Shown here: one piece after another, positions 19,846 to 36,077 of the stretch | How positions within the stretch are numbered: position 1 is the stretch's first letter | Layout of the letters: each line of letters begins with the position of its first letter | Source: Actinokineospora xionganensis | GTDB lineage: Bacteria > Actinomycetota > Actinomycetes > Mycobacteriales > Pseudonocardiaceae | Assembly (NCBI RefSeq): GCF_014323725.1 | Contig: NZ_JABVED010000002.1 | Coordinates: 186,001-250,000 of the forward strand | Length of the DNA stretch: 64,000 nucleotides | Direction of reading: 5' to 3' | Notes under the pieces: model-generated | The model's input: only the letters and a program-made list of their open reading frames with translations | The model's database searches: none | Told to the model about the DNA's origin: nothing | Translations under genes and position numbers: made by a program

Positions 19846-21182
19846 CGGTCGCAACCTCCCATCACGGGGTCGATCGAGGCGACGGCGGCGATCACGTCGG
19901 CGACCATGCCGCCCTCGGACATCGCGGGCATCGACTGCAGGTTGATGAAGCTTGGTTCGCGCACGTGCACGCGCATCGGGCGGGTGCCGCCGTCGGAGAC
20001 GAGGTGGTAGCCCAGCTCGCCGCGCGGGGACTCGACCGGCACGTACACCTGGCCCGCGGGCACCTTGAAGCCCTCGGTGACCAGCTTGAAGTGATGGATC
20101 AGCGACTCCATGGACTGCCCCATGATCTTGCGGACGTGCTCCAGGGAGTTGCCCATGCCGTCGGCGCCGATGCTCAGCTTCGCGGGCCAGGCGATCTTCT
20201 GGTCGGCGACCATGACCGGGCCCGGCTCGAGCTTGTCGAGGCACTGGCGCACGATCTTGAGCGACTGGTGGATCTCCTCGACGCGCAGCAGGTACCGGGC
20301 GAAGGCGTCGGCGGCGTTCGAGGTCGGGACCTCGAAGTCGTACTCCTCGTAGCCCAGGTACGGCTCGGTCTTGCGCAGGTCCCAGGCCAGGCCCGCGGAC
20401 CGCAGGATCGGGCCGGTGATGCCGAGCGCGAGGCACGCGTCGACCGGGAGGTACCCGATGCCGACGAGCCGGTTGCGCCAGATCGGCTGACCGGTCAGCA
20501 GCTTGTCGTAGTCCGGCAGGCGCGAGTCCATCACCTTGAGGAAGTCGCTGACCTTCTGGTGATAGTCCGCCGGGAGGTCCTGCGCGAGACCGCCGGGCCG
20601 GATGAACGCGTGGTTCATCCGCAGGCCGGTGAGGTGCTCCAGCAGGTGCAGGACTTCCTCGCGCTCACGGAAGCCCGCGGTCATCGCGGTCAGCGAGCCG
20701 AGCTCCATGCCACCGGTGGCCAGCGCGACCAGGTGCGAGCTGATGCGGTTGAGCTCCAGCAGCATCACCCGGGCGACCTGGGCGCGACGCGGCGCCTCGA
20801 CGCCGAGCAGCTTCTCGATCGCCAGGCAGTACGCGGCCTCGTTGGACAGCGGCGCCAGGTAGTCCATGCGCGTCACGAAGGTGACGCCCTGGGTCCAGGT
20901 GCGGTACTCGCAGTTCTTCTCGATGCCGGTGTGGAGGTAGCCGACGACCGAGCGGGCCTGGGTGACCGTCTCGCCCTCGAGTTCGAGCACCAGGCGGAGC
21001 ACGCCGTGGGTCGAGGGGTGCTGCGGGCCCAGGTTGATGACGATGCGCTCGTCGTGGATGGCGTCGTCCAGGATCTCGTCCCAGTCGCCACCCGTGACGG
21101 TGTAGACGCGACCCTCGGTCGTGTCGCGCTCGTCCGCATAGTCAACAGAGTGTGGATGCGAGTTGTTCGGCTGTGTGGTCAC
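19842..21182 (-). CDS. nuoD: NADH-quinone oxidoreductase subunit D
   Basis: 446 aa, 49-kDa-type subunit lining the quinone site. [13 protein letters not shown], the [15 protein letters not shown] segment and the C-terminal [17 protein letters not shown] segment are conserved. GTG start at 21182 overlaps the nuoC stop. Confidence 0.97.
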
Positions 21183-21994
21183 GAGTAAGACCTCCGCTGG
21201 TCGGGCGGGGGGATCTCCGCGCCCTTGTACTCCACCGGGATCCCGCCGAGCGGGTAGTCCTTGCGCTGGGGGTGGCCATCCCAGTCGTCCGGCATGAGGA
21301 TCCGGGTCAGCGCGGGGTGTCCGTCATAGACGATCCCGAACATGTCCCAGGCCTCGCGCTCCTGCCAGTCGGCGGTCGGGTAGACCTCGACGACCGACGG
21401 GATGTGCGCGTCGGTGACGTCGACCGCGACCTCCAGCCGGATGCGGCGGCGGAACGTCATCGACGTCAGGTGGTAGACGGAGTGCAGCCGCTGCGGGATG
21501 TCGACCCCGTAGTCCACACCGGACACCGAGCTGCACAGCTCGAAGCGCAGGGCGGGCTCGTCGCGCAGGGTCCAGCAGAGCGCGACCAGGTCTTCGCGGC
21601 GGACGTAGAAGGTGATCTCGCCGCGGTCGACGGTGACCTGCTGGATCGCCTCGGCCGGGATCTCCCGGCGGGCCATGGCCGCGCGCAGGTCGTCGGTCAG
21701 CTCGTCGAACCAGCCGCCGTACGGACGCTCGGCCGGGGCCGGGGCGTACGCGGGCAGGCTCAGACCGCCGAAGCCGGTGGTGTCGCCGGTGCCCGCGACG
21801 TTGAACATGCCCTTGCGGGTGCGGCCCAGGACGACGGGCTCAGCGGGGACGGGCGCCTGGTGCTCGGCGGGACGGGCCAGGTCCTTCTCAGGCTCCTGGC
21901 CGGGCTCGGGCCGAGCGGCGCTCGAGTACTCGGTGCCAGGGGCGCGCCCGCTGTCCTCGGTGGGCTCGTCGCCGGTGGTGGGGGTGTCAGTCAT
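21179..21994 (-). CDS. nuoC: NADH-quinone oxidoreductase subunit C
   Basis: 271 aa. The C-terminal two thirds is the 30-kDa subunit domain ([44 protein letters not shown]). The first ~80 residues are a Pro/Glu-rich extension absent from short NuoC forms. ATG at 21994, 4 nt after the nuoB stop. Confidence 0.96.
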
Positions 21995-21998
21995 GGCT

Positions 21999-22550
21999 CT
22001 ACTTCTTCTTCGCGTACTTGATCGAAGACGCGATCAGCTCGGTGCGCTCACCACTGGCGGCGCGGATCGCGGCGCGGGTGGCGTTGATCGGCTCGTCCTG
22101 GATCTTGGCGTGCAGCTTGAGGATCGCGTCGAGCAGCATCTCCGGGCGCGGCGGGCAGCCGGGCAGGTACATGTCGACCGGCACGATGTGGTCGACGCCC
22201 TGCACCACGGCGTAGTTGTTGAACATGCCGCCCGACGAGGCGCACACGCCCATCGCCAGCACCCAGCGCGGCTCGGCCATCTGGTCGTAGATCTGCCGCA
22301 GGACCGGGGCCATCTTGTTGGTGACCCGGCCGGCGACGATCATCAGGTCGGCCTGGCGCGGGGAGGCGCGGAAGGCCTCCATGCCGAAGCGGGCGATGTC
22401 GTAGCGCGGACCGCCGGTGGTCATCATCTCGATGGCACAGCAGGCCAGTCCGAACGTGGCAGGCCACAGCGAGTTCTTGCGTCCCCAGTTCACCAGCTTT
22501 TCCAGGCTGGCCAACATGATTCCGTTGGGGAGCTTCTCTTCGATACCCAT
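21999..22550 (-). CDS. nuoB: NADH-quinone oxidoreductase subunit B
   Basis: 183 aa. Carries the N2 4Fe-4S cluster: adjacent Cys pair in [20 protein letters not shown] and PGCPPRPE. N2 is the last centre before the quinone. ATG at 22550 has AAGGAGG 8 nt upstream, the strongest ribosome-binding site in the operon. Confidence 0.97.
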
Positions 22551-22571: not shown

Positions 22572-22976
22572 TCAGTTCCAGTCGAGGCCGCCGCGACGCC
22601 AGACATAGGCGTACGCGAAGCCGACCGTTGCGATGAACAAGAAGATCTCCACCAGGCCGAACAGGCCGAGGGCGTCCGCTGAGACCGCGAACGGGTAGAG
22701 GAACACCATTTCGATGTCGAACAGGATGAAGAGCATCGCCGTGAGGTAGTAGGCGACCGGCACGCGGCCACCGCCCGCGACCGGCTGCGGCGATGGCTCG
22801 ATGCCGCACTCGTAGGCCTCGAACTTCGCCCGGTTGTAGCGACTCGGGCCCAGGAGCGGGCCCAGCAACGCCGAGAACACCGCGAAGCCCGCCGCCAGGA
22901 CGAACATCACGACCAAGGGGAAGTAGATCCCCAAGCCTGACGACACATCCGCTGACTGTGCTTGGAGCATCGACAC
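22572..22976 (-). CDS. nuoA: NADH-quinone oxidoreductase subunit A
   Basis: 134 aa, three membrane helices; KFEAYECGIEP and LFDIEMVFLYP are diagnostic. First gene of the complex I operon. GTG at 22976 is taken as start; an ATG two codons in is possible (AAAGGA lies about 10 nt upstream). The 289-bp region upstream holds two Rex-type operators and a long dyad. Confidence 0.96.
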   Translation of the reverse strand: MSMLQAQSADVSSGLGIYFPLVVMFVLAAGFAVFSALLGPLLGPSRYNRAKFEAYECGIEPSPQPVAGGGRVPVAYYLTAMLFILFDIEMVFLYPFAVSADALGLFGLVEIFLFIATVGFAYAYVWRRGGLDWN

Positions 22977-23028
22977 CGCCGCTGTCCTTTCCCGCCGCCT
23001 ACGGCCGGAACCCTATGGGTCCTCGGTC

Positions 23029-23068
23029 ACACCCGAGCTGGTTAGGATGACCTAACTAATTCGGGTGT
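23029..23068. promoter_or_regulatory. Nested 40-bp dyad upstream of nuoA
   Basis: Outer arms ACACCCGA (23029-23036) and TCGGGTGT (23061-23068) and inner arms GTTAGG (23041-23046) and CCTAAC (23051-23056) share one centre at 23048.5. It can be a protein-binding site or, if transcribed, a hairpin in the nuo leader. The inner part TTAGG-N4-CCTAA resembles half of an IdeR/DtxR iron box (14 of 19 positions), too weak to claim. Confidence 0.55.
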
Positions 23069-23071
23069 AGT

Positions 23072-23089
23072 TTGTGAAAACATTCACAA
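23072..23089. promoter_or_regulatory. Rex operator, site 1 (nuo promoter)
   Basis: TTGTGAA-AACA-TTCACAA, a perfect match to the known Rex operator consensus TTGTGAA-N4-TTCACAA. Rex is the actinobacterial repressor that senses the NADH/NAD+ ratio and is known in Streptomyces coelicolor to act on respiratory genes including nuo. The site lies 96 bp upstream of the nuoA start. Confidence 0.85.
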
Positions 23090-23103
23090 GCCAAACCGCT
23101 CGG

Positions 23104-23121
23104 ATGTGAAGGGCTTCACAA
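23104..23121. promoter_or_regulatory. Rex operator, site 2 (nuo promoter)
   Basis: ATGTGAA-GGGC-TTCACAA, 13 of 14 consensus positions for Rex. Its centre is 32 bp, about three helical turns, from that of site 1, so two Rex dimers would bind on the same face of the DNA. Confidence 0.8.
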
Positions 23122-23161
23122 CATATCGGCGCCAGTCTAGGACCTGGCTCACAACGCGAAA

Positions 23162-23227
23162 CGCGGCCCCCTCGGCAACTCTCCGTGAACGAGTGATGTC
23201 CACAACAGAGTCATCGAGAGGGCCGCG
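23162..23227 (-). terminator. Long-loop inverted repeat after menJ
   Basis: 13-bp arms CGCGGCCCCCTCG (23162-23174) and CGAGAGGGCCGCG (23215-23227) with one mismatch and a 40-nt loop. It lies downstream of the menJ stop at 23266 and upstream of the nuo operators, so it may end the menJ transcript. Confidence 0.5.
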
Positions 23228-23265
23228 ACCTGCGCTAACGCGGTGCTAGCGCCTGCGAACAGAAG

Positions 23266-24575: not shown

Positions 24576-24593
24576 TTGAGAAAGCTTTCACAT
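24576..24593. promoter_or_regulatory. Rex-like operator in the menJ leader
   Basis: TTGAGAA-AGCT-TTCACAT matches the Rex consensus TTGTGAA-N4-TTCACAA at 12 of 14 positions. It overlaps the Shine-Dalgarno sequence of menJ by two bases (CTCCTT, 24572-24577) and lies downstream of a possible -10 hexamer TAGACT (24601-24606, minus strand), a position suited to repression. Confidence 0.5.
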
Positions 24594-24611
24594 ACGCCAC
24601 CGAGTCTAGAG

Positions 24612-24655: not shown

Positions 24656-25849
24656 TTACCTCACCATGAGGAGGTCGCGTTGAGGTTCACGGTTCGCAGG
24701 CTCACCCAACGGCAGGCCTCCCCGTGCAGCCACGGCATGCCCTGCCGCGAATCGAATATTAAGGGCCGCGTTCACGTCCGCGTTGCAAGCGAAACCACAG
24801 GACCGGCACCGGAAGACGGCTTGGCTCTCGCGCGCCCCCCGAACCACAACCCCACACGCCGAACAACGCTGACTGGTGAACCGCGGATCGACCTTCACCA
24901 CCCGGCCCGGAGCCTTCTGCCCCAAGCGGGCCGCGAGCAGGCCCCACCCGTTGGCGAGGATTCCCCGGTTCAGCCCGGCCTTCTGCCGCACACCCCGACC
25001 GGGGGTGTCGATAGTGCCCTTCGCCGACCGGGTCATGTTGCTGATCTTGAGGTCTTCGACCGCGATCAGATCGAACTGCCGGGCCAAGCGGGTGCTGGTC
25101 TTCTCCACCCAGTCCTTGCGCCGGTCGGTCTCGCGGGCCTTGAGCTTCGCGATCGCCGTCTTGACCTTGCCGCGCCGGTTGGAGCCGCGTTGTGCCCGGG
25201 CGAGCTTGCGCTGCAGCCGCAGCAGGCGGGCCTGCTCGGTTCCGCGAAGGGCGGGCGCTTTCAGCAGTTCACCGGTGGACAGCGCGGCCGACACCACCAC
25301 ACCCCGGTCCACACCCACCACCGCACCGGTGCCCGGCCCTGCGATGGGCTCGGGCACCACAGCGAACGCCAGATGCCAACGACCGGCACGATCCCGAGTG
25401 ATCCGGTAGGACTTCACACCGTCGACCACGGCACGCGACCAGCGGAACCGCACCCAGCCGACCTTGGGCACCTTGACCTCGCCGACATGGCGGGACACTC
25501 GACGAACGTCGCCCGGACCGACCGTCACGATCCGAAAACCCTCGATCTGTCCGCGGCGGCGCCAGGTCGGTCGCCGGTGGGTCCGGCGGAAGAAGCTGGC
25601 CATCGCCTGGGCGAAATCCTTCAACGCCTGCTGCTGCACCATCACCGACCCCGCCGCCAACCACGGGTTCTCCGCCCGCGCCTGCGTCAACTGGCGACAC
25701 TGCGCGATGTACCCCGGTGCCGCCTTGCGTCCCAACCGCCAGTGGGCGTGTTGCTCCACCGCGAGGTTCCACACGAACCGGGCATGCCCACAATGCTCCA
25801 ACAACAGCCGCTCCTGGGCGGGCGTCGGCTGCAGACGGAACCTGGACAT
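24656..25849 (-). CDS. tnpB: RNA-guided endonuclease TnpB, copy 1
   Basis: 397 aa. N-terminal helix-turn-helix domain (RFRLQPTPAQE start, GHARFVWNLA), OrfB central domain, RuvC-like active site with Asp near 181 (GVDRG), Glu near 265 (AVEDL) and Asp near 358 (NADVN), and a zinc finger CSAC...CRSC. All catalytic and zinc ligands are intact, so the nuclease is probably active. About 85% identical by eye to the copy at 56006. ATG at 25849; the frame remains open upstream but similarity to copy 2 supports this start. Sits between menJ and the DUF4328 genes. Confidence 0.93.
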   Translation of the reverse strand: MSRFRLQPTPAQERLLLEHCGHARFVWNLAVEQHAHWRLGRKAAPGYIAQCRQLTQARAENPWLAAGSVMVQQQALKDFAQAMASFFRRTHRRPTWRRRGQIEGFRIVTVGPGDVRRVSRHVGEVKVPKVGWVRFRWSRAVVDGVKSYRITRDRAGRWHLAFAVVPEPIAGPGTGAVVGVDRGVVVSAALSTGELLKAPALRGTEQARLLRLQRKLARAQRGSNRRGKVKTAIAKLKARETDRRKDWVEKTSTRLARQFDLIAVEDLKISNMTRSAKGTIDTPGRGVRQKAGLNRGILANGWGLLAARLGQKAPGRVVKVDPRFTSQRCSACGVVVRGARESQAVFRCRSCGFACNADVNAALNIRFAAGHAVAARGGLPLGEPANREPQRDLLMVR

Positions 25850-25978
25850 GCCGATCAACCTACTGATCAGCACCGACAGAAACGGGATCGCATGGCCCAC
25901 GCGTCGACTGAGGTGTGAAACAGTTCGCCCGCCGTGTCCGATGTCTCGCGGCACGTCGACGACGCTCCTGGGGGAGTA

Positions 25979-26674
25979 ATGACCGCACCGAACGCTGCCG
26001 TCCTGCTGGGTGAGCAACGTCGCTATCTGCTCGTCCGACCGACTGGTCTCGCGGGCTATCTCGCCGTCGTCCTGATCGCGCTGGCCGTCGCCACCGGGTT
26101 GGTGACGGCGTGGTCGGCGTGGAACAGCTACTACGTCTTCGAACAGTTCGAGCAGGGCAGCGCGACGGTCGGGCCCGATGAGGTCGTCGCCGCCGAGGAC
26201 CTGTGGATCTCCCTGGTCGTCACCGATTACCTCGTGTTCGTGCTCGCGGGAATCGCGTTCATCACGTGGCTGTACCAGGTCCGCCGCAACGCCGAGATCT
26301 TCTGCGACGCGCCCCATCGCCGCTCCGGTCGGTTGGTCGGCTGGAGCTGGGTCGTCCCGATCGTCAATTTCTGGTACCCGTTCCAGGTGGTCATGGACAT
26401 CTGGAAGGCCAGTGACCCGGCCACCCCGCGCAGGCTGGATTCCTTGCGCACGGTGCAGGCAAGCCCTCTACTCGGCCTGTGGTGGGGGTTCTGGTTGGCG
26501 TCCTACGCCGTCAGCACACTCGGCGCGCTGGTCCCCACGAGGACCCCGCTGGACGAACTGCTGGCGGGCGCGGTCGTGATCACCGCGGCCGAGATGCTCA
26601 CGGCCGTCGCGGGTGTGCTGATCATCCTCTGTACCCATCGGATTATCCGCTGGCAGGCACAGCCTCGCGTCTGA
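25979..26674 (+). CDS. DUF4328 family membrane protein, first of three
   Basis: 231 aa, about four to five membrane helices. Diagnostic stretch: charged NAEIFCDAPHRRS loop, then WVVPIVNFWYPFQVVMDIWKASDP, PRRLDSL and the final RWQ. DUF4328 proteins are widespread in actinobacteria and have no established biochemical role. ATG at 25979 has GGGGGAG just upstream. First of three tandem paralogues, 32 nt before the second. Confidence 0.85.
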   Translation: MTAPNAAVLLGEQRRYLLVRPTGLAGYLAVVLIALAVATGLVTAWSAWNSYYVFEQFEQGSATVGPDEVVAAEDLWISLVVTDYLVFVLAGIAFITWLYQVRRNAEIFCDAPHRRSGRLVGWSWVVPIVNFWYPFQVVMDIWKASDPATPRRLDSLRTVQASPLLGLWWGFWLASYAVSTLGALVPTRTPLDELLAGAVVITAAEMLTAVAGVLIILCTHRIIRWQAQPRV

Positions 26675-27423: not shown

Positions 27424-28118
27424 CCGGAACACAGCCTCGCCGATATCTCTCCCTTCGGCCGGTAGGCAGGCGTGGAATCGTGGCGTCCGTGCTGATCGCG
27501 GCCTCAGTCGGGTTGGCGATCGCTTCCGCGGTGGCGAACTGGAACGCCTACCTCGCCGTGGTCGACTACAAGCGCCGCGACGCGACCTTCGAGGACGCGC
27601 TCGCCGCCCGCGACCTGACCATCGAGTACGGCGCGACCTACTTCTTCGTGTTGGCCGCCGCCGCGATCACGTTCCTGTTGTGGCTCTACCGCGCCCGCGC
27701 GAACGCCGACTTGCTCTGCGACGCGCCGCATCGGCATTCGAAGCCGTGGGTCGGTGGGTCGTGGTTCTGCCCGGTGGTGAACCTGTGGTTCCCGTACCAG
27801 GTCATGTCCGACGTGTGGAAGGCCAGCAAGCCGGAGACGCCGTGGCGGCTGGAGTCGCTCAAGCAGGTTCCGGGCAGCCCGCTGCTGTGGGTGTGGTGGG
27901 CGTGCTGGGTCGGCAGCTTCGTGATCGGCCGGGTGTCGGCGCTGGTCAACGACCAGCAGACGTCGCCGACCCTGGAGAAGTACTACACGCTGGCGATCGT
28001 CAAGTCGGTGAGCGCGGCCCTGATGATCGTGGCGGGCGCGTTGATCATCGTGGTGATCGTCCGGATCGGCCGCTGGCAGGAGCGGCCCCGAGACGACCTG
28101 GCCCTGGCTACGGCTTGA
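27420..28118 (+). CDS. DUF4328 family membrane protein, third of three
   Basis: 232 aa. Loop [13 protein letters not shown], core [24 protein letters not shown], then PWRLESL and RWQ. The core of this copy is closest to the second one, consistent with stepwise tandem duplication. Its 3' end overlaps the convergent menG gene by 11 bp. Confidence 0.85.
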
Positions 28119-28794
28119 CAGCCCGGTGCAGCGCGACGACGCCGAAGGTGAGGTTGAGCCACTCGACCTCGCCCCAGCCCGCCTCGGCGATCATCTCCGC
28201 GACGGTGCGCTGGTCGTGCCAGTCGCGCATCGACTCGGCCAGGTAGGCGTAGGCCTCGGCGTTCGAGGAGAACGGGCGGGTCACCAGCGGCAGGCCGCGC
28301 AACACCGTGTTGTGGTAGAGCCAGCGCAGGATCTTGGCGGGCGGCTGGGAGACCTCGCAGATCACCAGTCGCCCTCCCGGCCTGGTCACCCGGGCCATCT
28401 CGCGCAGCGCGGCGACGGTGTCGTTCATGTTGCGCAGGCCGAAGGACACGGTGACGGCGTCGAAGGCGTCATCGGCGAACGGCAGGTGGAAGGCGTCCGC
28501 GGCGACCTTGGGGACCGCCCGGGACCTGCCGCCGCGCAGCATCTCCTGGGAGAAGTCGGCGGCCACGCACCAGGCGCCGGAGCGGGCGTGCTCGATGGTC
28601 GAGACCGCGGTGCCCGCGGCCAGGTCGAGCACCTTCTCCCCCGGTCCCGCGTCGAGGACGCGGCGGGTCTGTTCGCGCCATCGCCGATCGAAGCCGAGGG
28701 TCATCACCGAGTTGGTGCGGTCATACCCCTTGGCGACTCCGTCGAACATCTCGGCGATGTCTTGCGGATCCTTGTCCAAACCGGCGCGAGCCAT
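28108..28794 (-). CDS. menG: Demethylmenaquinone methyltransferase
   Basis: 228 aa, UbiE/MenG-type class I SAM methyltransferase. SAM-binding [12 protein letters not shown], then [20 protein letters not shown] and [14 protein letters not shown], which are specific to this family. Catalyses the last step of menaquinone synthesis, C-methylation of demethylmenaquinone. It follows two glycosyltransferase genes by 22 nt, as menG follows mgtA (Rv0557-Rv0558) in M. tuberculosis. Confidence 0.93.
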
Positions 28795-36058: not shown

Positions 36059-36077
36059 GGAGGTTAGGCTAACCTAA
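36059..36077. promoter_or_regulatory. IdeR/DtxR-type iron box
   Basis: GGAGGTTAGGCTAACCTAA matches the 19-bp iron box consensus TTAGGTTAGGCTAACCTAA at 17 positions. It lies 24 bp upstream of the chosen start of the siderophore-importer ATPase. Iron-loaded IdeR/DmdR would repress the operon; expression is expected under iron limitation. Confidence 0.88.

Follow-up and report, generated by a model that had tools for sequence, protein, structure and literature searches.

In Streptomyces avermitilis, nuoA1, rex and wblE are proven targets of the NADH-sensing regulator Rex, which represses nuo, and cyd is a further target of this regulator (PMC5355995). The expression of nuoA1 is higher throughout in the rex mutant, and under oxygen limitation its rise is slight and brief, in wild-type and rex mutant alike (PMC5355995). 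The iron sensor IdeR of Saccharopolyspora erythraea binds a half-site at nuo as one dimer and in an iron-dependent manner (PMC8464063). The role of IdeR at one-dimer half-sites and its way of gene activation are listed as open in a review (PMC10317159). A paper on rex of Saccharopolyspora spinosa mentions neither nuo nor an operator (PMC4172946).

Probable Rex operators in the window and in relatives

The window, i.e. the whole stretch of 64,000 nucleotides from Actinokineospora xionganensis that was analyzed (C12:186001-250000 of the 6.81 Mb genome), contains the following features around the start of nuo. Two inverted repeats, O1 and O2, had been named Rex operators in a preliminary description, with reference to Rex reportedly acting on nuo in Streptomyces coelicolor. 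That description did not include the IdeR half-site, the third Rex-like site or the probable promoters.

21179..21994, minus strand: nuoC (NF005856)
21999..22550, minus strand: nuoB (NF005012)
22572..22976, minus strand: nuoA (NF005922), 134 aa, GTG start with an in-frame ATG 6 bases on
23010..23015, minus strand: predicted -10 element of promoter P2 (TAGGGT), with the IdeR half-site 26 bp upstream
23042..23055, unstranded: IdeR half-site TTAGG-N4-CCTAA (one-dimer site), exact match
23072..23089, unstranded: Rex operator O2 (nuoA-proximal), 14/14 consensus positions
23104..23121, unstranded: Rex operator O1 (distal), 13/14 consensus positions
23134..23139, minus strand: predicted -10 element of promoter P1 (TAGACT), 12 bp upstream of O1, proposed from conservation
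23145..23260, minus strand: very strong RNA hairpins, possible terminator, between the GGR stop codon and P1
23266..24567, minus strand: GGR, a geranylgeranyl-reductase-family flavoprotein (TIGR02032 over cut-off)
24576..24593, unstranded: third Rex-like site, 12/14, directly before the GGR ribosome-binding site
24603..24608, minus strand: predicted GGR -10 element (TAGACT)
24656-26317, minus strand: TnpB gene (NF040570, 239 bits, cut-off 100), directly upstream of GGR
28108-28794, minus strand: demethylmenaquinone methyltransferase (NF001241)

A scan of the window for TTGTGAA-N4-TTCACAA with up to three mismatches returned O2 as an exact match, O1 with one mismatch and the site at 24576-24593 with two. 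It confirmed the positions given earlier for the nuo repeats, 23072 (perfect) and 23104 (13/14), and their start-to-start distance of 32 bp. These three matches compare with 0.19 expected per shuffled window, and three were reached by 0/100 shuffles. The distance from the end of the inner operator to the first possible start codon of nuoA is 95 bp; the gene scored 177 bits with NF005922 (NCBIfam, cut-off 155). Genome-wide, 34 places match with up to three mismatches versus 18 for the reversed pattern, so that the weak matches are largely noise, and those with two or three mismatches were dropped as evidence. No more than one mismatch is seen at just four places: O1, O2, a site at C12:267299 (one mismatch) within the longest possible rex open reading frame, about 120 bp upstream of the start of Rex similarity, and a site at C67:171702 (one mismatch), located 69 bp ahead of a wblE-like WhiB gene (PF02467). 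A rex gene, whose absence had been set beforehand as the refuting result, was found as the single PF06971 match in the genome, 58 kb from nuo. Its product reached 373 bits with the Rex equivalog NF003992 (NCBIfam profile search, cut-off 226) and matches solved structures of Rex over both the DNA-binding and the nucleotide-binding part.

For comparison with relatives, a NuoA search gave 80 loci (L017-L096). The window was added and L058, with 42 bp upstream, was removed from all counts, which gives n = 80 (Pseudonocardiales); L058 is included among the 81 rows of the tree and of the element table. When up to 4 kb before nuoA were scanned, 80/80 loci had a Rex-like site with at most two mismatches (150 sites), whereas the reversed pattern gave none in 314,637 bases; as related loci share ancestry, these locus counts are not independent. 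With rex present, the four best genome matches at nuo, rex and the WhiB gene and all 80 loci conserved, the earlier naming stands: both repeats before nuo are very probably Rex operators, and Rex control of nuo is likely.

The location of the operators varies between loci. Within 420 bp of nuoA, 58 loci have an operator pair, four a single site and 18 none; the 58 include L070, a metagenome-assembled genome (MAG), with its pair 322-345 bp before nuoA and in front of an apparent GGR N-terminus. The 18 belong to Actinomycetospora, Saccharopolyspora, most Pseudonocardia and one MAG, and they have an operator before GGR instead. The distance from the GGR end to nuoA is 11-205 bp in these 18 and 251-2400 bp in the 52 measurable pair loci. 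Operators before GGR occur in 29/80 loci, and 11 loci, the window among them, have operators both there and at nuo. Other families of the order contributed 21 loci (L133-L153). A Rex site precedes the GGR start by 22-79 bp in 11 of them, four (L136, L138, L142, L148) have a perfect site on the projected nuoA start, and six have no Rex site in the stretch scanned, with the GGR upstream region missing in at least two. The gene for Rex was found in 49/50 queried genomes of the 80, the sole miss being a 3.0 Mb MAG. It is present in 26/26 queried genomes with an operator pair at nuo and in 23/24 of those with no or one site there, so the assumption that rex is missing where nuo has no operators was rejected. 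Given a site at nuo or GGR across the loci and the wide presence of rex, the Rex input to this gene pair appears to be widely kept while the operator position moves, in a direction that the tree does not tell. At least five changes of operator state and eight of spacing are needed on the tree. The shift between nuoA and GGR would thus be a clear case of a regulatory input that is kept while its place moves. In the NuoB/NuoD tree the row nearest to the window is A. enzanensis (91% identity). Two rows, L047 (titled Rhodococcus rhodnii NRRL B-16535, 12.4 Mb) and L062 (Actinosynnema sp. ALI-1.44), fall within Kibdelosporangium on this tree and are probably mislabelled.

GGR is probably a further target of the same Rex, through the site at 24576. 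TACACT or TAGACT is found 6-15 bp before 28/30 GGR operators, and our literature search found no report linking Rex with GGR. GGR is possibly the menaquinone side-chain reductase MenJ; its score with the MenJ model NF045655 is 254 bits, far below the cut-off of 700. Demethylmenaquinone methyltransferase, GGR and nuo form a menaquinone and complex I neighbourhood in one stretch. The hairpin-like end of the TnpB element reaches to about 10-20 bp from the predicted GGR -10 element, so that its insertion has probably replaced the GGR -35 region. The hairpins at 23145-23260 are two nested structures without a T tract (-65 kcal/mol, z -4.85, 0/200 shuffles as stable). A terminator match at 23102-23087 does not exceed chance (0.9 expected) and was discarded. 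The assumption that strong hairpins are confined to loci where nuo has a promoter of its own does not hold, since the best 90-nt folding from the GGR stop codon to nuoA is strong in either locus class (medians -44 and -39 kcal/mol). Read-through from GGR in loci without nuo operators is therefore suggested by the short gap alone.

Predicted promoter P1 and the spacing of the operator pair

In 57/58 tandem loci TACACT or TAGACT precedes O1 by 8-16 bp, and in 54 of them by 11 or 12 bp. A start about 7 bases after this conserved -10 element would place the P1 start near 23127, so both operators, beginning about 7 and about 39 bases further on, are probably located downstream of the start and inside the transcript. 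In the consensus scan no sigma-70 promoter was detected at P1 or P2 (none at 9/12) and the -35 elements are weak; both -10 elements are thus proposed from conservation alone. At low NADH/NAD+ Rex dimers on O1 and O2 would stop RNA polymerase at initiation or immediately after it. With rising NADH, Rex would leave and P1 would fire.

The preliminary description further took the helical phasing of the pair, three turns apart, as a hint of cooperative binding. The 58 pairs have spacings of 32 bp (48 loci), 33 bp (4), 31 bp (2) and 30, 24, 23 and 20 bp (one each), i.e. 54/58 lie at 31-33 bp. The operators themselves are well preserved, with O2 perfect in 54 tandem loci and with one mismatch in four, and O1 perfect in 36, with one mismatch in 20 and with two in two. 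Between 13 genus labels with 32-bp pairs the spacer is only 46% alike, compared to 82% and 85% for the operators, so the length of the spacer is kept more than its letters. This fits a constraint on length and speaks for cooperativity. Against it stand the pairs spaced 20, 23 and 24 bp at nuo or GGR and those at wblE, the latter being out of phase. A fixed layout of -10 element and operators would also hold the length without any contact between dimers, and no report of tandem or cooperative Rex sites was found in our literature search. Further spacings are 34 bp (L113/L114), 20 bp (L115/L116) and 24 bp (L111/L117), and among the matches listed, the wblE-like WhiB genes of other genera of the family (L107-L110, L122, L123) have tandem Rex-like sites with a spacing of 26 or 29 bp. 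These spacings at nuo and wblE make the phasing a tendency at nuo and no rule for Rex pairs. The tandem pattern was found in at least 149/200 genomes in a search of the family, with nuo and wblE pairs mixed, and the exact pattern in 2/394 genomes of the class, both of the genus of the window, in a sample with three genomes of the family. Cooperative binding of Rex at O1 and O2 is unproven and, in our judgement, somewhat doubtful.

An IdeR half-site and a second promoter-like unit

The half-site TTAGGNNNNCCTAA, as defined for IdeR in S. erythraea (PMC8464063), is matched exactly at 23042-23055, between the Rex operators and nuoA. The genome contains ideR (NF053665, 330 bits, cut-off 290). A second exact half-site (TTAGGCTAACCTAA) is located in the window at 36064-36077, and the genome has six exact half-sites. 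An IdeR box with at most one mismatch is present in 47/80 loci versus 0.1 expected in resampled sequence. With up to three mismatches, the box is followed by TAnnnT at a distance of exactly 25 or 26 bp in 70/80 loci, and by the narrower TAnGGT at that register in 62/80 versus none in the control. The same register between box and P2 -10 element is also found in loci without nuo Rex operators. Six of the ten loci that fail this test instead have a box with one mismatch ahead of the P1 -10 element, at 37 or 48 bp. Of the 57 pair loci, 24 have an IdeR box before P1, at 37 bp (3 loci), 38 bp (11), 39 bp (7) or 48 bp (3). No IdeR box was detected upstream of the window's own P1.

All four elements are present in 49 tandem loci. 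There, the gap between the P1 -10 element and O1 has a standard deviation of 0.9 and the O1-O2 distance one of 2.1, and the gap from the IdeR box to the P2 -10 element has one of 0.4. In contrast, the distance from O2 to the IdeR box ranges from 7 to 60 bp (standard deviation 16.8). Tight inner gaps next to a free distance point to two rigid and independent units with a loose link. The first would consist of P1 and the two Rex operators. The second lies between it and nuoA, and its IdeR half-site has its centre about 45 bases upstream of the predicted P2 start (about 23003).

IdeR is best known as a repressor. The fixed register suggests that IdeR activates P2, and the steps of the box register of about 11 bp (26, 37-39, 48), one helical turn, point to an activator facing the polymerase. 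Iron-loaded IdeR, as one dimer, would most likely activate P2, so that with iron at hand P2 would be active and the iron-rich complex I made. It is possible, but still tentative, that this applies to nuo of the Pseudonocardiaceae in general, with tandem Rex roadblocks reading NADH and a single IdeR dimer activating from a fixed helix face, at about -45 at P2 and at -57 or -67 at P1 (Amycolatopsis, Prauserella).

Redox state and iron as proposed inputs to nuo, and known systems

The sequence, the positions, their conservation and the presence of rex and ideR are directly seen. From these we infer starts, binding and directions of effect by which nuo would be controlled by two promoter units in series, a Rex-blocked P1 and an IdeR-activated P2 (probability roughly 0.6). 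The conserved IdeR-like control point beside the Rex operators makes it seem that complex I is set by both redox state and iron. The layout predicts that complex I is made only at high NADH, when electrons require an outlet, and from the second promoter when its iron can be supplied. The preliminary description had predicted that complex I is induced when NADH rises. Rex operators at nuo support part of this prediction, which is nevertheless too simple in view of the second promoter-like unit with its IdeR half-site and of the slight, brief rise of S. avermitilis nuoA1 under oxygen limitation, which both strains showed (PMC5355995). Both Rex and IdeR have been described at nuo before, in different actinomycetes, and what is new is their joint arrangement; our literature search found no report of Rex together with IdeR at nuo. 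If true, the two-input reading answers the published open questions on IdeR at half-sites and on activation, and the IdeR register makes both testable with reporters.

It might also be assumed that nuo is under ordinary Rex repression, where P2 and IdeR are incidental, the pair only raises occupancy and there is neither roadblock geometry nor iron input here. Rex of S. avermitilis represses nuo with one operator (PMC5355995), and two putative Rex sites are described for ldh1 of Staphylococcus aureus (PMC2883068), as such an assumption would have it. We consider it unlikely, since the IdeR box keeps its 25- or 26-bp register to the -10 element in 70/80 loci, also without nuo Rex operators, and IdeR binding at S. 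erythraea nuo is published (PMC8464063).

The repeats might be read by the cAMP receptor protein (Crp/GlxR), whose consensus is TGTGA-N6-TCACA. O1 and O2 both match this consensus exactly (six exact places in the genome) and the genome has Crp-type regulators (three HTH_Crp_2 matches over cut-off), but this reading is highly improbable and was rejected, since the positions specific to Rex are fixed (A7 and T12 in 58/58 loci in both operators, T1 and A18 in 58/58 at O2), 25/30 GGR operators begin with TC, TA or AC (positions 1-2), which mostly breaks the Crp T, while keeping GTGAA-N4-TT(C)AC-like cores, and the other near-perfect sites of the genome lie at rex and the WhiB gene.

The control by two units in series, with Rex at P1 and IdeR at P2, can be compared with several described systems. 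The consensus and the gene classes nuo, rex and wblE are shared with the operators of nuoA1-N1, cydA1B1CD, rex-hem and wblE in S. avermitilis (PMC5355995). Unlike cyd of that species, the window's own organism has a cydA (C23:31734-33116, L097) with no Rex site at up to three mismatches in the 1.5 kb upstream stretch. The nuoA1 gene of S. avermitilis has a single operator, TTGTGACCTGCTTCACAT, at -42 to -16 and over the -35 element (PMC5355995), whereas here two near-perfect operators are probably located downstream of the start. As the nuoA1 operator overlies the region from -35 to -10 (PMC5355995), the roadblock geometry proposed here would not be simply inherited. A downstream position as predicted here for nuo is described for cydA1 of S. 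avermitilis, where an operator and a half-operator cover -3 to +25 (PMC5355995). The ldh1 gene of S. aureus resembles nuo here in having two putative Rex sites before one gene, but its sites are predictions, and it is a fermentation gene from another phylum (PMC2883068). On the side of IdeR, the closest likeness is to nuo of S. erythraea, a bacterium of the same family, with TTAGG-N4-CCTAA before nuo (PMC8464063, PMC10317159). In these papers the position of the promoter and the role of the site are left open (PMC8464063, PMC10317159). The Saccharopolyspora loci in our set have the box 26 (or 25) bp before TAGAGT. Compared with the S. erythraea reports, 70/80 loci here keep a fixed register to a -10-like hexamer, and Rex operators adjoin in 58/80.
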